Shown piece by piece: positions 28,269 through 37,455 of a stretch of DNA of 64,000 bases (positions within the stretch are counted from its first letter, which is position 1; each line of letters starts with the position of its first letter). Location: the NCBI RefSeq assembly GCF_901686465.1, contig NZ_LR594487.1:3175773-3239772 (forward strand). Direction: 5' to 3'. The position numbers and the translations under genes are program-made. Source of the DNA: Halorubrum sp. DM2 (lineage in GTDB: Archaea > Halobacteriota > Halobacteria > Halobacteriales > Haloferacaceae). The notes below the pieces were generated by a model. It was not told the origin of the DNA. It worked only from the letters and a program-made list of their open reading frames with translations, and made no database searches.

Positions 28269-29042
28269 TCACTCCAGTTCGACTAGCAGGTCTCGGTTCG
28301 CCGCCTCGTAGCGCAGCCGCTCCGATCGGAGCGACTCACGCCGGCGGTCCGCCCAGTCGCTCGCGTCGAAGTCGGTCTCGTCGACCGCGCCCTCGACCGT
28401 GTCGAGCAGGTGCGCGAGGACCGTCCGCTCGCCCGCCTCGTACGGCGGTTCGATCGTCCACGGCGACGGTCCCTCGGCGATCACGGTCGCCGCGCGAGCC
28501 AGCGCCGCCGCGCCGTCCGGACCGCCGGGCCGGAACTCCCGCATGTGGCGGTGATACCGGTCGAGGACGGCGTCGTCGTCCGTATCGGGGGGCGCGAAGC
28601 GCGTCTCGCCGTCGTAGGTGATCGGCGCGTACGCGACGGGAGCGACCGCGGCGAGGGCGTCGACCGCGGGGGCGGCGTCGACCACGTCGAAGAACGCGCA
28701 GCCGACGACCGCGTCGAACCGTCGGCCCGCGGCCGCCGCGTCGCGCGCGAAATCGAACGCGTCGGCGACGCGGTACTCGACGTCGACGCCGCCGACCGCG
28801 TCGCCGACCCGCGCCTCGCCCGCGGCGAGCGCCTCCTCGTGGGCGTCGACGGCGACCCACCGGCCGCCCTCGATCACGTCCCACTCGGCGAGGCGCTCGA
28901 CCATCGTCGCCGTGCCGGCACCGACCTCCAGTATCTCCGGCTCCGGCGGAAGCTCGGCGGCGAACCGGTCGAGGACCGTGCGGTTCAGCGAGCGGTCGTC
29001 GAGCGCGCGCTTCGCGTCGAGGTACGCGGCGTGGTCGGTCAC
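28269..29042 (-). CDS. Class I SAM-dependent methyltransferase (pterin-like operon)
   Basis: 257 residues from GTG 29042, overlapping the preceding glycosyltransferase stop by 4 nt. Motif I EILEVGAGTATMVERL (about residues 36-51) binds SAM; VAVDAHEEAL is the motif II acid end; YRVADAFDFARDA and FDAVVGCAFFDVVD complete the fold. It lacks clear markers of DNA or RNA methyltransferases, so a small-molecule or glycan acceptor is likely. Last gene of a four-gene operon with a dehydrogenase, a PTPS homologue and a GT4 enzyme. Confidence 0.82.
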   Translation of the reverse strand: MTDHAAYLDAKRALDDRSLNRTVLDRFAAELPPEPEILEVGAGTATMVERLAEWDVIEGGRWVAVDAHEEALAAGEARVGDAVGGVDVEYRVADAFDFARDAAAAGRRFDAVVGCAFFDVVDAAPAVDALAAVAPVAYAPITYDGETRFAPPDTDDDAVLDRYHRHMREFRPGGPDGAAALARAATVIAEGPSPWTIEPPYEAGERTVLAHLLDTVEGAVDETDFDASDWADRRRESLRSERLRYEAANRDLLVELE

Positions 29043-30211
29043 GCGCTATCACCCCGGGTCCTCTCATCCGCAGCTGTCTTCCCGTCCGCGATCGCCCCGC
29101 TTCCCGCCTCCGCCGCCAGAAAATCGACCGCGCGGTCGAGCGTCTGTGGCCACCCCGGCCGCGCCTCGTAGTCGCGGCGCGCGGCGACGCCCATCTCGGC
29201 CAGCCGGTCGCGGTCGTCGAGGTCCCGGAGCGCCCGGGCGACGGCTCGCGGGTCGTCGGGCGAGACGAGGACCCCGGACTCGCCGTCGCGGACGAACTCG
29301 CCGGCCCCGCCCGCGGTCGTCGCCAGCGGGACGCAGCCGAACCCCATCGCCTCCAGGTACACCATCCCGAACGGCTCGTACCGCGAGGGGACTGCCAAGA
29401 CGTGGCTCTCGCGGAGCCGCGCCGCGACCGCCTCGTCGTCGAGTCGGCCGACGAAGCTGACCCGGTCGTCGACTCCGGCCGCGGCGATCGCGCGCTCGAC
29501 GGTCTCGACGTACTCCGGCGCGACGGTCCGGTCGCCGACGACGGTCAGCCGCCAGTCGACCGCATCTCGATCCAGCCGAGCGACGCCGTCGACGAGCGTG
29601 TCCAGCCCCTTTCGGGAGACGACATTCCCGAGGAACGTCACCTCCAGCGGCCCGGAGCCCGCCCGCTCCCGGATATCGGACTCGGAGACCACCGGGTCAA
29701 ACCGGTCGCCGGCGGGCGGCGCGACCATGTTCCGGTCCGGGCCGCCGAGTCCGGCCGCGTCCCGCCGGGTCGTCTCGGCGTTGTACACCGCGGCGTCGAC
29801 CCCCCGGAGGAAGCGGCGCTCGACCGCCGCGACCCCTCGGCGGGCGAGTTCGGTGCGCACCCGGCCGGCCGCGTCTGTTCCCGCCGCCCCCTGAGCCGCC
29901 CGCGCACGCCAAGCGATCATGTGGACGAGAGCGACGGTCGGCGCGTCGAGCGAGCGGTTAGCGAGCAGCACGGACGGGTGCGCTAGCCCGTCCTCGACGA
30001 CGACGTCGAACCCCGAGAGCCGGTCCGTGAGCCGGCGGGCGCGGAGGTTCGGCGCGAGGCGCTCCCGGTAGGAGCCTCGGGGAAGCGAGACCACCTCGAC
30101 CGCGTGGCCCCGCTCGCGGATGCGGTCGCGGAGCCGGCGGTCGTAGTAGAAGCCGCCGGACTCGGCGTCGATGTCGCCGGCGAGCACGAGGGCGACGCGC
30201 ATCCTCGTCAC
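29039..30211 (-). CDS. Glycosyltransferase family 4 (pterin-like operon)
   Basis: 390 residues from GTG 30211, which overlaps the PTPS stop as GTGA; an ATG 9 nt later is possible. GT-B fold: MRVALVLAGDIDAESGGFYYDRR at the acceptor side, VTFLGNVVSRKGLDTLVDGV opening the donor domain, and VPSRYEPFGMVYLEAMGFG with the E-x7-E pair near residue 295. Unlike the island GT4 genes it has normal GC-rich composition. Being locked between a PTPS homologue and a methyltransferase, it may glycosylate a pterin or a related small molecule rather than a surface glycan. Confidence 0.86.
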   Translation of the reverse strand: MTRMRVALVLAGDIDAESGGFYYDRRLRDRIRERGHAVEVVSLPRGSYRERLAPNLRARRLTDRLSGFDVVVEDGLAHPSVLLANRSLDAPTVALVHMIAWRARAAQGAAGTDAAGRVRTELARRGVAAVERRFLRGVDAAVYNAETTRRDAAGLGGPDRNMVAPPAGDRFDPVVSESDIRERAGSGPLEVTFLGNVVSRKGLDTLVDGVARLDRDAVDWRLTVVGDRTVAPEYVETVERAIAAAGVDDRVSFVGRLDDEAVAARLRESHVLAVPSRYEPFGMVYLEAMGFGCVPLATTAGGAGEFVRDGESGVLVSPDDPRAVARALRDLDDRDRLAEMGVAARRDYEARPGWPQTLDRAVDFLAAEAGSGAIADGKTAADERTRGDSA

Positions 30212-30579
30212 TCCAGCGCGCCCGTGTACGAGACGCGCGCGACGTCGTCCTCGTGGACGGTCACGGTCAGTTCGGTCGCGGCGGGGGCGTCGACGCCGGC
30301 GAGCGCGTCGAACAGCGCCCGGGCCAGCCGCTCGGCGCTCGGGTTTCCGTCGAGGCGGTCGTTGAGCGTCTCGTCGCGGTACCGGTCGGCGGCGGCCCGC
30401 AGCGCCTCGCGAGCGAGGTCGATGTCGAGCAGGTAGCCATACTCGCCGAGTTCGGGGCCGCTGAACGTCGCCTCCGCGGTGAAGGCGTGCGAATGGAGGG
30501 TCGCCTCGTCGGCCGGCGGGTTCGGGACGGTGAGGAAGTGCTGTGCGACGAACGACTCGGTGACGGTCAGTTCGTACAT
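30208..30579 (-). CDS. 6-pyruvoyl-tetrahydropterin synthase/QueD family, Cys-less variant
   Basis: 123 residues, full length for the family. Zinc-binding histidines are visible as His14 (AQHF) and His29/His31 (LHSH). The catalytic Cys of the usual CxxxHGH motif is Glu25 here (E-A-T-L-H-S-H), a replacement known from PTPS-III enzymes, which cleave dihydroneopterin triphosphate to 6-hydroxymethyl-dihydropterin instead of a 6-pyruvoyl or 6-carboxy product. So it is unlikely to be the queuosine/archaeosine QueD. It overlaps the dehydrogenase by 13 nt and the GT4 by 4 nt. Confidence 0.8.
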   Translation of the reverse strand: MYELTVTESFVAQHFLTVPNPPADEATLHSHAFTAEATFSGPELGEYGYLLDIDLAREALRAAADRYRDETLNDRLDGNPSAERLARALFDALAGVDAPAATELTVTVHEDDVARVSYTGALE

Positions 30580-31625
30580 GGGTAGGTGAACAGGATCTGG
30601 CGGGTGGCGTCTCGCTCGTCCGCGAGCCGGCGGTACGCGCTCGGCGCGTCGGCGACGGGGACGCGGTCGGTGACGAGCCGGTCCGTGACGTCGAGGTCGT
30701 CGTTGAGCCGCCGGAGTTCGCGCCAGGCGGTCTCGCGGCGGCGCTCGCGGTCCCAGCGCCCGCGGAGTTCAGGCGCGATGGTGCTGACTTGGCTGCTCCG
30801 AACGGTCACCCGCCCGCGGTGGAAGTGGTCGCCGAAGCCGAGGTCGGCGCGCTTGGTCCCGTACCACGACCCGACGACGACGCGGCCGTCGAACCGGGTG
30901 GTCTCGACCGCCGTCTCCAGCGTCTCCGGCCGGCCGGACACCTCGACGGCGAGGTCGACGCCGTCGGTGTGCTCGCGGACCGCGTCGACGACGCCCGCCC
31001 GCCCGTCGTGTCGGCTCGGGTCGACGACCGCGTCCGCGCCGAACTCGGCCGCGAGCGACCGTCGATCTTCTCTCGGTTCGACCGCGACGACGGTCTCAGC
31101 GCCGCTCCGCGCCAGCAGCGCGGTCGTGAGCAGTCCGACGACGCCCTCGCCGAACACCGCGACGCGCTCGCCGATCCGGGGGGCGGCATCGAGCGTCAGG
31201 CTGACCGCGGTCTCCGCGTTCGCGAACAGCGTCGCGGTCTCCGGGCCGACCCCGTCGGGAACGGGATAGAGTGCGTCCGGCGAGACCGCGAACCGGCTCT
31301 CGTGGGGGTTGAACGCGAAGACGGTCCGGTCGCGCCACGCCGGGTCGACGGCGTCGCCGACGGCTGTCACCCGTCCGACCGCCGCGTATCCGTACCGGAG
31401 CGGGTACGAGAGGTCGCCGTCGAGGGACGGCAGCTCCTCGTCCGCGACCGTGTCCGGGTCGAGTTCGCCGCGGTACGCGAGCAGTTCCGACCCCGCGCTG
31501 ACCGCCGAGACCGTCGCCTCGACGACCACCTCGTCGGGGGCGGGGACGGGGTCGTCGATGGCGACCACGTCGACGCGCTCCGGGCCGACGAACTCTACCG
31601 CGCGTCCGGTGTCGCCACCGCTCAC
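30567..31625 (-). CDS. Zinc-binding-type alcohol dehydrogenase (MDR), first gene of pterin-like operon
   Basis: 352 residues from GTG 31625. MDR superfamily: Gly-rich cofactor motif RVAVFGEGVVGLLTTALL near residue 155, SGRPETLETAV, and RVVVGSWYG. The catalytic zinc ligands of classical ADHs are not obvious in the N-terminal part, and the structural four-Cys loop is absent, so the chemistry may be non-standard. The ending VSTIAPELRGRWDRERR is a feature I associate with bacterial MDR genes found beside PTPS homologues (recollection). It likely oxidises or reduces the side chain of a pterin-like intermediate. Preceded by 147 nt without a gene. Confidence 0.78.
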   Translation of the reverse strand: MSGGDTGRAVEFVGPERVDVVAIDDPVPAPDEVVVEATVSAVSAGSELLAYRGELDPDTVADEELPSLDGDLSYPLRYGYAAVGRVTAVGDAVDPAWRDRTVFAFNPHESRFAVSPDALYPVPDGVGPETATLFANAETAVSLTLDAAPRIGERVAVFGEGVVGLLTTALLARSGAETVVAVEPREDRRSLAAEFGADAVVDPSRHDGRAGVVDAVREHTDGVDLAVEVSGRPETLETAVETTRFDGRVVVGSWYGTKRADLGFGDHFHRGRVTVRSSQVSTIAPELRGRWDRERRRETAWRELRRLNDDLDVTDRLVTDRVPVADAPSAYRRLADERDATRQILFTYPCTN

Positions 31626-31772: not shown

Positions 31773-32153
31773 ATGTCACACTCCGAAGCCGGCGTCGACA
31801 CCGAATCGCTGACCCCCCTCCACTGGATCGGGATCGTCGCCGCCACCGTGTCCGGGATCGTACACGTCGTTCTTGGGGTACAGGTCGGGGGAGCGTTGGG
31901 TATCTCCTTTTTCGTCGCGACCCTAGGCTTCGGCGCGGGCGTGACGGCGATAATCGCCGGGTACCGTCGCCGGCTGACGTACGCGCTCGGAATCCCGTTC
32001 ACCGGCGGACAGATCGTCTTATGGTACGTCATCAACTTCGTCACCGGGACGTACTCGTTCCCGGCCGACATCGGAACGTACGGTGCTGTCGACAAGATCG
32101 CGCAAATCGTGTTGATCGTCGTCCTCGCGGTCCTGTTGTACCGGGAGTCCTGA
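31773..32153 (+). CDS. Four-helix haloarchaeal membrane protein
   Basis: 126 residues from ATG 31773. Four hydrophobic segments: WIGIVAATVSGIVHVVLGVQ, GISFFVATLGFGAGVTAIIA, LGIPFTGGQIVLWYVINFV and IVLIVVLAVLLY. The first helix, with IVHVVLG, resembles small haloarchaeal membrane proteins of unknown function. An A-rich TATA-like ACAAATAA about 30 nt before the start fits a promoter. Divergent from the pterin-like operon. The frame extends far upstream across the dehydrogenase gene, but that part is a shadow. No function assigned. Confidence 0.72.
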   Translation: MSHSEAGVDTESLTPLHWIGIVAATVSGIVHVVLGVQVGGALGISFFVATLGFGAGVTAIIAGYRRRLTYALGIPFTGGQIVLWYVINFVTGTYSFPADIGTYGAVDKIAQIVLIVVLAVLLYRES

Positions 32154-32389: not shown

Positions 32390-33496
32390 ATGGCCGACGA
32401 CCCGCTTTTCGACGAGTTCGAACTGAACGGACACGCTCTCGACAACCGCGTCGGTCTCGCGCCGATGACGCGGACGAGCGCGACCGACGAGGGGCACCCG
32501 ACGGACCGGATGGCGCGGTACTACGCCTCCTTCGCCCGCGGCGGCTTCTCGTTCCTCGTCACGGAGGGCGTCCACCCGGACGCGACGCACAGTCAGGGCT
32601 ACCCCAATCAGCCCGGCCTCGCGACCGACGAACAGGCGGCGGCGTGGGAGCCAGTCGTCGACGCCGTCCACGAGGCCGGCAGTCCGATCATCGCCCAGTT
32701 GATGCACGCCGGGGCGCAGGCGCAGGGCAACCGTTACGGGCTCGGTCCCGTCGCCCCGTCCCCGTACCGTCCGCCGGGCGAGATGGCCGAGATGTACGGC
32801 GGTTCGGGCGAGTTCCCCGAGGCGGACGGACTCGACGATGAGGGGCTCGCCGACGTGAAAACGGACTTCGTCGCCGCGGCGGAGCGCGCGCTTGACGCCG
32901 GGTTCGACGGGATCGAGGTCCACGCCGCGAACGGCTACCTCCTCCACGAGTTCGTCGACCCGCTGGTCAACGATCGCGACGACGAGTACGGGGGATCGCC
33001 GGAGAACCGGGCGCGGTTCCCCGCCGAGGTGACGGCGGCCATCGACGAGGCCACGCCCGACGAGTTCGTCGTCGGCGTCCGCGCCTCGCAGGCGGCGGTG
33101 GCCGATCAAGAGCGGGTCTGGCCCGACGGCGAGGCGACCGCCGCCGCGCTGTTCGGCGCGCTCTCCGACGCCGGTGCCGACTACGTCCACGTCACCGGCG
33201 GCGACGCGACCGCGCCCGAGGTGCCGGACACCGACCGGACGCTCGCGGAACTCGCCGCGGACCACGCCGGCGACGACGTCGCCGTGATCGCCAACGGGAG
33301 CCTCGGCGACCCCGAAAACGCCCGAGCCGCGTTGGCCGACGGCTCCGACCTGATCACGCTCGGCACCGGCGCGCTCGCCAACCACGACTGGCCCGACCGG
33401 GTCCGGGCGGGCGAGCCGCTCGACGACCTCGACCCGAGCGTCGTCTTCCAGCCCGACGCCTCGCTCAGCGACGCAGAGATCCCCGGAGACGACTGA
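32390..33496 (+). CDS. NADH:flavin oxidoreductase, Old Yellow Enzyme family
   Basis: 368 residues. FMN-binding TIM barrel: NRVGLAPMTRTSATDEGHPT (Thr and Arg near the flavin), GGFSFLVTEGVH, PIIAQLMHAGAQA with the conserved Gln/His region, FDGIEVHAANGYLLHEFVDP (substrate-binding HAANGYL), and VVGVRASQ. OYE enzymes reduce activated C=C bonds using NAD(P)H. No fused C-terminal FeS or flavin domain, so it is the short OYE type. Physiological substrate unknown. The 236-nt region upstream holds the palindrome GTGGTACCAC at about 32312-32321 and a TTATG element near 32360. Confidence 0.92.
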   Translation: MADDPLFDEFELNGHALDNRVGLAPMTRTSATDEGHPTDRMARYYASFARGGFSFLVTEGVHPDATHSQGYPNQPGLATDEQAAAWEPVVDAVHEAGSPIIAQLMHAGAQAQGNRYGLGPVAPSPYRPPGEMAEMYGGSGEFPEADGLDDEGLADVKTDFVAAAERALDAGFDGIEVHAANGYLLHEFVDPLVNDRDDEYGGSPENRARFPAEVTAAIDEATPDEFVVGVRASQAAVADQERVWPDGEATAAALFGALSDAGADYVHVTGGDATAPEVPDTDRTLAELAADHAGDDVAVIANGSLGDPENARAALADGSDLITLGTGALANHDWPDRVRAGEPLDDLDPSVVFQPDASLSDAEIPGDD

Positions 33497-33559: not shown

Positions 33560-34351
33560 TCAGCCGCGGTCTCCCCCCGCCGAGACCGGCGGATCGTCGC
33601 GACCCAGCCGCCCCGTCGCGGCGGCCCAGTCGCGGGCGAAGCTTCCGAGCAGGGCCGCGAGCGCGAGCGCCGAGAGCGCGGTGAGCCAGACGGGCAGCCC
33701 GCCCGCGCCGCCGACGCCCGGGAGGAGCGCGAGCGCGACGACGACGAACTGGACGGTGCCGACGAACGGGCGGACCCGACTCGGCGAGAGTTCGTACACC
33801 GGCGCGCCCTTCCGCCTGCGCCGCCACAGCGACGCGGCGTAGGCGTACCAGACCCCGCCGGCGACGAGGTACCACCCGGGGAGTGACCCGAGCGCGACGG
33901 CGACCGCCGCGCCAACGAGGACCGCGAGCGCGTCGGTGGCCCCGTCGAGGCGCGCGCCGAGGACCGTCTCCGCCGTGCGGCGGGCGACCGCGCCGTCGAC
34001 CGCGTCGAGACCGACCGCGCCGGCGAAGAGCGCGACGGGGACCCACGGGGAGGGGGACGGCGCGACGACCGCGCCGGCGAGGACCGCGGCGAGCCAGCCG
34101 CGGAACAGCGTGATCGCGTTCGCCGGACCGAGTTGAGGGTCGAGGTCGTCGCCGCCCGGCGGACGGTTCGCACCGAGGTTCGTCCACGCGTACGCCGTCA
34201 GGTACGTCCCGGGCGCGACCGCGGCGAGGACCCACCCGGCCCCGAGCGGTCGCCACAGCGCGGCGAGACCGAGGAGGCCGAGCGCCGCGACGGCGACGAA
34301 CTGAATGCGGAGGCGGGAAGGCGGCGCTGGGTGCGGCCCGAGTCCGGCCAT
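33560..34351 (-). CDS. CDP-alcohol phosphatidyltransferase family membrane protein
   Basis: 263 residues, about 7 membrane segments. Near residue 98 the catalytic signature reads DAVDGAVARRTAETVLGAR followed by LDGATD, supplying the DG...AR...G...D...D acidic cluster. Such enzymes exchange CMP from a CDP-activated lipid for an alcohol, for instance in archaetidylinositol, archaetidylserine or archaetidylglycerol synthesis. Which headgroup is used cannot be told. Starts 1 nt after the lhr stop on the same strand, so the two are probably cotranscribed, although no functional link is obvious. Confidence 0.85.
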   Translation of the reverse strand: MAGLGPHPAPPSRLRIQFVAVAALGLLGLAALWRPLGAGWVLAAVAPGTYLTAYAWTNLGANRPPGGDDLDPQLGPANAITLFRGWLAAVLAGAVVAPSPSPWVPVALFAGAVGLDAVDGAVARRTAETVLGARLDGATDALAVLVGAAVAVALGSLPGWYLVAGGVWYAYAASLWRRRRKGAPVYELSPSRVRPFVGTVQFVVVALALLPGVGGAGGLPVWLTALSALALAALLGSFARDWAAATGRLGRDDPPVSAGGDRG

Positions 34352-34352
34352 C

Positions 34353-37346
34353 TCAGTCCGTCCGTCGGTCCGCCGACGGTTCGGCGTTGCGGTCGGCGCT
34401 CCGGTCGTCGGCAGCGGTCCCGGCGTCGTCGGCGCTCCGGTCGTCGGCGGTCCGCGGTGTCTCGCCGATCTCCTCCATCACGCGGGCGTGGAACTCGCGG
34501 AGGACGGCCGACTCGTCGTCGGCGATGACGGTGTCGGAGTCGACGAGCGTCGCCAGCCCGAACGCGAGCGGGCTGGGCGAGTCGACGACGCGGTGTTCGA
34601 CCGCCAGATCGCCGGTCGAGATCCGCCCGACGACCTCGCGGATCCCCGCCACGTCGAGGCGGTCCTCCAGCAGTTCGCGGTACGTCTCCTCCAACACGGC
34701 AAACTCGTCCAACTCCGCCGCGAACGACAGCAGCATCTCGGCGGAGACCTGCTGTTCGGCGGCCGACTTCTCGTACCCCTTGTACCGCTTCAGGATCATG
34801 AGCGCGCGCCCCGCGTCGATCCGGAAGTACCGCTGGAGCAGGTCGGTCCCCTCGACGGCCTCGCGGAGGTCCTCGCGGACCGCCTCCGGGTCGAGGTCGG
34901 CCAAGATCTGTGCCACGTCGACCTTGCGGTTCAGCGGGAGCGCGAGCGAGAACCCGCGGTCCGCGACCGCGACCGCGACGTTGGCGTCGGTCCGGTTCGC
35001 GACCGCACTCGCGGCGAGCCGCGAGAGCCCGTCGTTGAACCGCCGACCGTAGACGGAGTGGACGTAGAAGCGGCGCTTGTACTCGCTGCGGTCGAGTTCC
35101 TCCTCCACCACGAGGCGGTCGGGCGTCGAGACGCCAGCCGGCCCCGCGTACCGGACCTGCTCGTCGTACATCCGGGCGAGCGCCCGGACCGCGTTCTCGT
35201 CGAGGGGGAACTCCCGGAGCCACGCGCGGACCGCGGCGGGACCGGCGTTCGGGTCGTCGCCGGTCAGCCGGTCGAGGAGTTCGGCCTGGAACGCCAGCAC
35301 CTCGCGGGCGAGGTCCGCGGACAGCGGGAGGCGCTCCGCGAACCACGAGGGGACCGTCGGCCGCTCGCTCGTGCGGTCGACGTACACCTTCGAGCCGCGG
35401 CGGTAGCGGAACGCGAACCGCTCGCCGCCCAAGGCGAACACGTCGCCGGACTCCAGCGTGTCGAGGTACGACTCGTCGAGCGTGCCGACCCACTCGTCGC
35501 CGCGCGTGAACACGTCGCAGGTGAACGAGTCGGGGATCGTCCCCACGTTCGTCATGTAGATGACCCGTGCGAGCCGGCCGCGCTTCCCGACGAGCGTCTC
35601 GCCGACCGGGAACTCGGGGTGGTGGTGGTCGCCGTCGGGCGGGTCGTTGGCGTCGCGCCACACCTTCGGGTAGACGTTCTTCGACTCCAGCCCGTCGTAG
35701 TCCGCGGTGAGATACCGCATGAGTCGTTCGTAGGCCGCCTCGTCGAAGTCGCGGTACGGGTTCGCCCGGCGTAACACCTCCCGGACCTCGCGGTCGGGCC
35801 GGATCCGGTTTATGGCCATCCCGTACACGTGCTGTGCGGCCACGTCGTAGGCCCCCTCGGGCGGGAACACGCGGTCGACGAAGCCGTCCTCGGCGCGCGC
35901 GAGCAGCGTCGCACACTCGATCAGCTCGTCGCGGTCCAGAGCGAACACCCGCCCCTCGACGGTCTCTCCCGGGCTGTGGCCGGCGCGTCCGACGCGCTGG
36001 AGGAGCGCCGCGACCGACTTCGGCGAGCCGACCTGGACCACCAGATCGAGGTGGGGCATGTCGATGCCGAGTTCGAGGCTCGTCGAGGTGGTGACCACGT
36101 CGAGGTCGCCGGCTTTCAGCCCCTCCTCGACGCGCGTCCGCTGCGCCTCGCCGAGGCTGCCGTGGTGACAGCCCGAGTCCGACTCGTCGTAGTCGAACCG
36201 CTGCCGGAGCTCCTGAAGCGTGCGCTCCGCGCCGGACCGGGAGTTCGTGAACACGAGCGTGTTCTCGTGGCGCTCGATCAGGTCGTGGAGCGACTCGTAG
36301 AACCGGTCGGTCACCGCCGACCGCGGCGTGTGGATCAGGTCGGCGGCGGGCGTCCTGAGTTCGAGGTCGAACTCGCGGGCGAACCGGGCGTCGACCACCT
36401 CGCAGGGACGCGTTTTGAACCCGTCGGCGTCGCCGACCGCGCCGTCGACGCGCTCGCGGCCGACGAGGAACGAAGCGATCCCGTCGAGCGGTTCGACGGT
36501 CGCCGAGCAGCCGATCCGCGTCGGGGGACCGGCGGCGGACGCCGCGTCGTCGCCCGCCGCGATCAGCTCCGTCAGCCGCTCCAGCGACACCGAGAGGTGC
36601 GTGCCGCGCTTGTTCGCGGCCAGCGAGTGGATCTCGTCGACGATCACGTACTCGACGGTGCGGAGCTTCTCCTTGAACTTCGGCGAGTTGAGTAAGATTG
36701 CGAGCGTCTCCGGCGTGGTGTTGAGGACGTGGGGCGTCTCCGAGAGCATCGCCTGCCGGTCCGCCTTCGAGGTGTCGCCGTGGCGGATCGCCTGCCTGAC
36801 GCCGGGGTCGTAGGGGTCGTCCCCGTCGCTGTCGCTCGGGTTGGACTCGCCGCCGTCGCTCTCGTCGCTGGATTCTCCCTCCGCCGTCGCGATCGCCTCG
36901 CCGATCCCCTCCAGCGGGGTCGCGAGGTTGCGCTCGATGTCGTTCGCGAGCGACTTCAGCGGCGAGACGTACAGGCAGTAGACGGAGTTGTCGAGGTCGC
37001 CGGCGCGGTCGCGCGCGAAGAGGTCGTCGAGGACCGCAATAAAGGAGGCGAGCGTCTTCCCGCTGCCCGTCGGCGCGGCGACGAGGCAGTTCTCCCCGTC
37101 GTCGACGTGGGGGATCGCCTCCCGCTGGGGCGGGGTGAAGAAGCCGCCGTTCTCGGCGACGTACCCGCCGAACCGCTCGACCCACCAGCGACGGACCGGC
37201 GACGAGAGCCGGGCGAGCACGTCGGCGTCGCCGATCGGGACCGTCTCCGGGTCGAAGTCGGGGTCCGCGACCGCGCTGCGGTCGACCGCGCCGCGGAGGA
37301 GCGCCCGCGCGGTCGCCTCGGCGTCGCGATCCGTGGACTCGGTCAC
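34353..37346 (-). CDS. lhr: Large ATP-dependent helicase, Lhr family
   Basis: 997 residues from GTG 37346 (MTESTDRDAEATARALLRG); the upstream in-frame part to 37448 is Arg-rich and not domain-like. Superfamily 2 helicase: motif I VAAPTGSGKTLASFIAV, motif II YVIVDEIHSLAANKRGTHL (DEIH), Lhr-type LSVSLERL, motif III SATV, SRSGAERTLQEL, motif VI LLQRVGRAGHSPGE. The C-terminal winged-helix and Lhr-specific part runs from about residue 480 on. Lhr is a 3'-5' ssDNA translocase implicated in DNA repair and replication-coupled processes in archaea. Confidence 0.94.
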   Translation of the reverse strand: MTESTDRDAEATARALLRGAVDRSAVADPDFDPETVPIGDADVLARLSSPVRRWWVERFGGYVAENGGFFTPPQREAIPHVDDGENCLVAAPTGSGKTLASFIAVLDDLFARDRAGDLDNSVYCLYVSPLKSLANDIERNLATPLEGIGEAIATAEGESSDESDGGESNPSDSDGDDPYDPGVRQAIRHGDTSKADRQAMLSETPHVLNTTPETLAILLNSPKFKEKLRTVEYVIVDEIHSLAANKRGTHLSVSLERLTELIAAGDDAASAAGPPTRIGCSATVEPLDGIASFLVGRERVDGAVGDADGFKTRPCEVVDARFAREFDLELRTPAADLIHTPRSAVTDRFYESLHDLIERHENTLVFTNSRSGAERTLQELRQRFDYDESDSGCHHGSLGEAQRTRVEEGLKAGDLDVVTTSTSLELGIDMPHLDLVVQVGSPKSVAALLQRVGRAGHSPGETVEGRVFALDRDELIECATLLARAEDGFVDRVFPPEGAYDVAAQHVYGMAINRIRPDREVREVLRRANPYRDFDEAAYERLMRYLTADYDGLESKNVYPKVWRDANDPPDGDHHHPEFPVGETLVGKRGRLARVIYMTNVGTIPDSFTCDVFTRGDEWVGTLDESYLDTLESGDVFALGGERFAFRYRRGSKVYVDRTSERPTVPSWFAERLPLSADLAREVLAFQAELLDRLTGDDPNAGPAAVRAWLREFPLDENAVRALARMYDEQVRYAGPAGVSTPDRLVVEEELDRSEYKRRFYVHSVYGRRFNDGLSRLAASAVANRTDANVAVAVADRGFSLALPLNRKVDVAQILADLDPEAVREDLREAVEGTDLLQRYFRIDAGRALMILKRYKGYEKSAAEQQVSAEMLLSFAAELDEFAVLEETYRELLEDRLDVAGIREVVGRISTGDLAVEHRVVDSPSPLAFGLATLVDSDTVIADDESAVLREFHARVMEEIGETPRTADDRSADDAGTAADDRSADRNAEPSADRRTD

Positions 37347-37391
37347 GGCGATCACGAGGGGTCGGGAAGGGAAATCGGTTGCGTCGATTCC

Positions 37392-37455
37392 CCGCGGAAC
37401 TTCGCGCAACCGACCCCACCTCCGTCGGCTCCGCGGAAATTCGCGCAACCGACCC
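37392..37455. promoter_or_regulatory. Two 25-bp direct repeats between lhr and cmk
   Basis: CCGCGGAACTTCGCGCAACCGACCC at 37392-37416 recurs at 37431-37455 with one mismatch, 39 bp apart. A shorter inverted copy, CGGTTGCG, lies at 37376-37383. The second direct copy directly abuts the TTTAT element at 37457-37461, the likely promoter of cmk (ATG 37489). This is consistent with a binding site for a regulator of the divergent lhr and cmk genes; no known protein is assigned. Confidence 0.5.

Follow-up and report, generated by a model that had tools for sequence, protein, structure and literature searches.

A conserved haloarchaeal and bacterial gene cluster around a PTPS-fold protein, with a possible role in the synthesis of a glycosylated, methylated pteridine or aminopyrimidine

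The window analysed here is a stretch of 64,000 nucleotides from Halorubrum sp. DM2 (contig NZ_LR594487.1, positions 3,175,773 to 3,239,772) that sits within a 3.45 Mb single-contig genome. At positions 28269-31625 it contains an operon encoding an MDR-superfamily dehydrogenase, a PTPS homologue, a GT4 glycosyltransferase (GT) and a SAM-dependent methyltransferase (MT). We estimate a probability of about 0.6 that these four genes and a nearby gene for a CDP-alcohol phosphatidyltransferase (CDPOH) form the core of a biosynthetic pathway common to haloarchaea and many bacteria, in which a GTP-derived formamidopyrimidine or diaminopyrimidine ribotide would be converted to a glycosylated, methylated and possibly phospholipid-linked pteridine or aminopyrimidine. 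Genome comparison shows a conserved gene order and co-occurrence, a PTPS homologue that is separate from QueD, and a recurrent link to the GTP cyclohydrolases (GCHs) of the riboflavin route. The gene order is kept in two domains of life, in about half of the sampled haloarchaea and in at least 589 confirmed bacterial stretches, and the gene set is undescribed in the literature searched. The core genes are as follows.

30567-31625, minus strand: MDR-superfamily dehydrogenase (PF00107), BchC-like, without zinc ligands
30208-30579, minus strand: PTPS/QueD-fold protein of the SCO6650 type (PF01242)
29039-30211, minus strand: GT4 retaining glycosyltransferase (PF00534/PF13692); the start may be at 30202
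28269-29042, minus strand: class I SAM-dependent methyltransferase (PF13649)
33560-34351, minus strand: CDPOH (PF01066, 42.7 bits)

An earlier note on this DNA, made from the sequence alone, had described four open reading frames (ORFs) overlapping by 13, 4 and 4 nt, and these are present as described on the minus strand. The families that it named are likewise supported by profile matches, including a score of 66.7 bits against a cut-off of 22.4 for PF01242. It is possible that the GT begins instead at an in-frame ATG at 30202, three codons past the GTG of the GTGA overlap, since homologue alignments begin there (query residues 3-5); this start would give a 5-nt gap. The GC content of the region (70-74%, versus 43-55% in the first 16 kb of the window) agrees with the assignment of the operon to core sequence.

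The haloarchaeal sample comprised 117 Halobacteriales genomes, of which 66 have a clear homologue of the window PTPS and 51 do not. MDR, GT and MT genes were detected in 64, 54 and 58 of the PTPS-bearing genomes, respectively, and in none of the others (Fisher p 3e-31 to 8e-22, uncorrected for relatedness). This co-occurrence rules out a chance adjacency of the four genes, and the neighbourhood survey that the earlier note had proposed, on the grounds that its claim would fail if the homologues were rarely found together, thus leaves that claim standing. The surroundings of 60 haloarchaeal PTPS genes, compared over up to 17.5 kb, usually have the order CDPOH-MDR-PTPS-GT-MT, with the CDPOH gene at most 6 kb from the PTPS gene in 35 of the 60 loci. 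One genus has a split cluster, with GCH III, PTPS and GT genes adjacent at one site and MT and MDR genes at another. In three relatives of the window from its own genus, the GT gene is remote from the PTPS gene and follows the single GCH III gene of the genome at a distance of about 110 bp, at the following sites.

G021:C23:31013-32897
G033:C1:2951818-2953729
G068:C5:106456-108355

Similar bacterial gene sets, which the earlier note had mentioned, do exist, with the same gene order in annotated plasmids and in genome loci. Genes for relatives of SCO6650 (PDB 3d7j) stand in clusters of this order in Actinomycetes, Proteobacteria, Acidobacteria and Gemmatimonadales, and searches with SCO6650-like sequences identified annotated plasmid clusters in Streptomyces, Methylosinus, Thiodictyon, Rhizobium, Palleronia, Microbacterium and others. 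The 80 bacterial genome loci compared, from these four groups and others, had the highest scores among at least 589 confirmed stretches, a selection that under-samples rare arrangements. Within about 10 kb around the bacterial PTPS gene, MDR is found in 80 loci, GT in 77, MT in 75, CDPOH in 70, RibD_C in 52, an LPG-synthase transmembrane (TM) protein in 49, GCH II in 43 and a creatininase-family gene in 38, and a check of these family assignments upheld them. Between the window and the bacterial clusters, each of the five genes has a specific match, with E values of 6e-51 for MDR, 5e-24 for GT, 6e-16 for CDPOH (against the best bacterial copy), 1e-11 for MT and 1e-8 for PTPS. The Streptomyces relatives of SCO6650 have the order MDR-PTPS-GT4-MT, accompanied by a CDP-alcohol transferase and GCH II, and the window shares both this order and the nearby CDP-alcohol transferase. 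The cluster is thus larger than the four genes first listed: those four were correctly chosen, but CDPOH, which is a regular member, was overlooked, as were the riboflavin-type genes and the missing zinc site of the MDR. Bacteria often add a RibD-type reductase, a creatininase, a membrane protein and GCH II.

Some clusters (L099, L100, L107 and L109) include extra genes for cytochrome b, an FkbM methyltransferase, an inositol monophosphatase, a PfkB kinase or a Gfo/Idh oxidoreductase. A solitary SCO6650-type PTPS gene without the usual partners is found on a plasmid of Streptomyces sp. NBC_00028 (L105).

The membership of the window protein in the PTPS superfamily, indicated by its profile score, is also apparent from its fold. 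The AlphaFold model (pLDDT 90.9) has its best match in 3d7j (Z 16.1), and E. coli QueD scores Z 13.8; SCO6650, from Streptomyces coelicolor, is the closest solved structure by both sequence and fold. In a phylogenetic tree, the haloarchaeal operon PTPS and the bacterial cluster PTPS fall apart from QueD (support 99/92), with each group on one side of the branch, although the short alignment, with few columns and long branches, makes the tree support rather than proof. The invariant or near-invariant residues of the haloarchaeal proteins are H14, E25, H29, S30, H31, D69, N73, N79-P80-S81, E83 and E110, and H14, H29 and H31 form a putative zinc site. Within the motif E25-x-x-x-H29-S30-H31, E25 and H29 are present in 61 of 61 aligned sequences, S30 in 60 and H31 in 59. 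The Asp-His pair of E. coli QueD aligns with R68-D69. The bacterial cluster PTPS sequences differ in having HGA, with one zinc His lost, and an extra invariant His9, and they lack Glu25; they are linked to GCH II, whereas the haloarchaeal proteins are linked to GCH III.

In the literature, QueD is recognised by the motif CxxxHGH and PTPS-III by ExxHGH (PMC5041015); neither signature is found in the 61 haloarchaeal operon sequences. Glu25 does occupy the position of the QueD Cys, as the earlier note had observed, but it lies one residue before the Glu of PTPS-III, and the proposed PTPS-III identity is therefore not borne out.

It is hardly credible that the PTPS homologue is the QueD of this organism, serving archaeosine synthesis with the other genes as bystanders. 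In favour of this, the genome encodes no other PF01242 protein, and relatives of this one are annotated by PGAP as 6-carboxytetrahydropterin synthase. However, true haloarchaeal QueD sequences, used as controls, have C-x3-HGH and form a separate clade, and many of them occur alongside the operon in one genome. Moreover, the co-occurrence with MDR, GT and MT is strict, and a family search of the Halorubrum genome gave only partial, weak PF06508 matches in place of a full-length QueC. Motif, clade and missing QueC together rule out a QueD identity, and the QueD annotation of cluster PTPS proteins is misleading. With neither QueD nor full-length QueC in the genome, the archaeosine precursor is probably imported, or archaeosine is lacking.

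The equivalent of Glu110 in QueD and PTPS enzymes holds the 2-amino-4-oxo edge of the pyrimidine, and this residue is invariant in both the haloarchaeal and the bacterial cluster proteins. This invariance and the structural match to PTPS enzymes make it plausible, as the earlier note had in part supposed, that the substrate is a 2-amino-4-oxopyrimidine or of the pterin type. The retention of the ring-binding part alongside a changed catalytic part fits the same pyrimidine in a different reaction.

The origin of that pyrimidine is suggested by the cyclohydrolases that accompany the cluster. GCH III produces a formylated (formamidopyrimidine) ribotide in archaea, and BrbF, a creatininase-family enzyme, deformylates this compound (PMC9478397). 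A GCH III gene lies at most 6 kb from the PTPS gene in 26 of the 66 haloarchaeal genomes, and wherever a genome has two GCH III genes (11 cases), the PTPS is present too and one of the two genes lies beside it. The GCH II copies linked to the bacterial clusters frequently have an altered site, with Met, His, Cys or Ile at the position of E. coli GCH II Tyr105 in 27 of the 42 readable copies. A creatininase-family gene accompanies all 27 of these, versus 6 of the 15 that have Tyr (p=1e-5, uncorrected for relatedness). SCO6655, the GCH II of the S. coelicolor SCO6650 cluster, has Met at this position and reportedly, in 2006 work of Spoonamore and colleagues, releases the formylated product.

GCH I can be set aside as a cluster neighbour, with a clear match near only one of 155 cluster loci (L136). 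A possible GCHY-1 match lies 7 kb away from one further locus (L046), where it could belong to a neighbouring gene; because the GCHY-1 probes were all the ORFs of one locus, only this match looks real. Dihydroneopterin triphosphate, the precursor named in the earlier note, is thus unlikely, the linked cyclohydrolases being GCH III and GCH II. These counts also bear on the alternative in which dihydroneopterin triphosphate, or else the haloarchaeal cyclic phosphate, is converted by a PTPS-III-like enzyme to 6-hydroxymethyl-dihydropterin for subsequent glycosylation and methylation. The PTPS fold, a Glu in the active-site loop, the invariant Glu110 and a GCHY-1/MptA gene elsewhere in the genome are all compatible with it, and cyanopterin is an example of a glycosylated, O-methylated hydroxymethylpterin (PMC3546692). 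However, the motif is ExxxHSH instead of ExxHGH, R68-D69 stands in place of the QueD Asp-His dyad, and GCH I and GCHY-1 are rare at loci where GCH III and GCH II are common, which makes this alternative unlikely. A PTPS-III role in folate synthesis was rejected on the motif, and presence in just 66 of 117 genomes would be odd for a folate step.

If the early enzymes GCH III, GCH II, RibD_C and creatininase are held in common with riboflavin and F420 synthesis, the cluster could extend one of those routes to a modified flavin, deazaflavin or lumazine. We know of no role for the PTPS fold in that ring system, and no riboflavin-synthase, lumazine-synthase or Fo-synthase gene was seen among the annotated neighbours. 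PTPS-IV has been tied to F420 by unpublished work (PMC5041015), but an extended flavin or F420 route is nonetheless improbable.

Several observations weigh against a pathway from a formamidopyrimidine or diaminopyrimidine ribotide. No cyclohydrolase adjoins the cluster in the Halorubrum genome. The single GCH III, RibD_C and GCHY-1/MptA genes of that genome all lie elsewhere; the presence of the first two favours the pathway, which would then share its precursor supply with riboflavin synthesis. Of the 66 haloarchaeal loci, 40 (some on short contigs) showed no GCH III nearby, and the haloarchaeal loci gave no RibD_C or LPG-synthase match and a creatininase in just two cases. The cluster GCH II of Proteobacteria and of Actinoplanes/Micromonospora mostly retains Tyr. 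The lipid link comes from family membership only, and neighbourhood links are no proof of substrate flow.

The remaining core proteins have features that bear on the product. Across 51 homologues, the MDR has a conserved motif S43-x-G45-T/S46-E47 and a loop resembling that of BchC, but no conserved Cys that could supply the ligands of zinc-dependent MDR alcohol dehydrogenases; its automatic naming as a zinc enzyme is therefore wrong. In the GT, the retaining GT4 motif E-x7-E is formed by E279 and E287, which at least 93% of the 48 sequences compared retain. The CDPOH preserves the catalytic motif D116-x2-D119-G-x2-A-R-x7-G-x3-D136-x3-D140, including all four Asp residues. Together with the LPG-synthase-TM protein of bacterial clusters, it suggests a lipid-linked product.

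This same evidence admits a reading unrelated to GTP, in which the PTPS homologue has turned to sugar chemistry and the MDR, GT, MT, CDPOH and LPG-synthase-like protein build a methylated glycophospholipid or surface sugar. The frequency of CDPOH and LPG-synthase-TM genes in the bacterial loci is in keeping with it, as are the zinc His missing from the bacterial PTPS (HGA) and the best, though weak, NCBIfam match of the CDPOH, to an archaetidylinositol-phosphate synthase model. On the other hand, GCH III, GCH II, RibD_C and creatininase genes cluster with the PTPS, and Glu110 is invariant, so a glycolipid of this kind is rather doubtful.

On the favoured reading, from a GTP-derived ribotide, GTP would be opened to a formamidopyrimidine ribotide (FAPy ribotide, AFRPP) by GCH III, encoded elsewhere in the Halorubrum genome, or by GCH II in bacteria, and a formamidase, of the creatininase family in the bacterial clusters, would yield the diaminopyrimidine ribotide. 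A RibD-type reductase may act on the ribose or, at a later stage, on a dihydropterin. The PTPS homologue would then hold the 2-amino-4-oxopyrimidine through Glu110 and a metal, rearrange the sugar carbons and possibly close a dihydropterin ring, after which the MDR may alter the oxidation state of the side chain. The CDP-alcohol enzyme would couple a polyol or polyol phosphate to an archaetidyl lipid (phosphatidyl in bacteria), and the GT4 and methyltransferase would decorate the product, most likely a pteridine or aminopyrimidine that is glycosylated, methylated and probably membrane-linked. A bolder and quite speculative version is a de novo pterin route independent of GCH I. Amadori rearrangement and ring closure are normally carried out by GCH I; here GCH III or altered GCH II would act with the formamidase, and the PTPS homologue would perform both reactions to give dihydroneopterin monophosphate, borne as a glycosylated, methylated phospholipid head group in bacteria and haloarchaea. 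Modified 'halopterins' from haloarchaea might be considered as candidate products; the argument above does not draw on them. The earlier interpretation was right in seeing a conserved biosynthetic operon with parallels in bacteria, mistaken over PTPS-III, and probably mistaken over the precursor as well.

The known systems resemble the cluster only in part. QueD/PTPS-I (COG0720) shares the fold, the zinc-type His residues and the Glu110 pterin anchor, whereas the window PTPS has Glu for the catalytic Cys, an altered Asp-His dyad, a separate clade and no queC partner. PTPS-III also has Glu in place of Cys in the active-site loop, but the offset of that Glu and the genome context both differ. 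SCO6650 stands on the same side of the PTPS tree as the window protein. Cyanobacterial pterin glycosides such as cyanopterin (PgtA/BGluT), which bears an O-methyl sugar (PMC3546692), and the solfapterin of Sulfolobus are likewise glycosylated pterins. The cyanobacterial compounds, however, derive from biopterin or hydroxymethylpterin via known PgtA enzymes, and no link to a CDP-alcohol transferase or GCH III has been described for them. The start of archaeal riboflavin and F420 synthesis (ArfA, which is GCH III, ArfB and ArfC) and bacterial BrbF provide the first intermediates implied by the cluster neighbours (PMC9478397), to which the cluster adds PTPS, MDR, GT, MT and CDP-alcohol transferase; later riboflavin genes were not seen. 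The comparison offers a testable starting point in the first intermediate on the way to riboflavin and F420. If correct, it would provide a purpose for the altered-site GCH II of the clusters, the second GCH III of some haloarchaea and the orphan structure SCO6650. It also warns that naming these PTPS proteins as QueD, and the MDR as zinc-binding, is misleading.

Two plus-strand genes separate the CDPOH gene from the four-gene operon in the window. The features around them are as follows.

31773-32153, plus strand: 126-aa membrane protein, with relatives near the cluster in 26 haloarchaeal loci in both orientations; membership uncertain
32390-33496: OYE-type gene
34353-37448: large DEXH helicase gene, the upstream neighbour of the CDPOH gene

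The CDPOH gene begins 1 nt after the helicase gene, and this spacing may mean that the two are read together. The helicase, PurU and PurQ were nonetheless rejected as pathway partners, being found beside the cluster in close relatives only, and so was the OYE-type gene, which is not kept next to it. The haloarchaeal cluster is often carried on megaplasmids, for example pNG700 of Haloarcula marismortui (L102), where a creatininase-family gene lies near the CDP-alcohol transferase.

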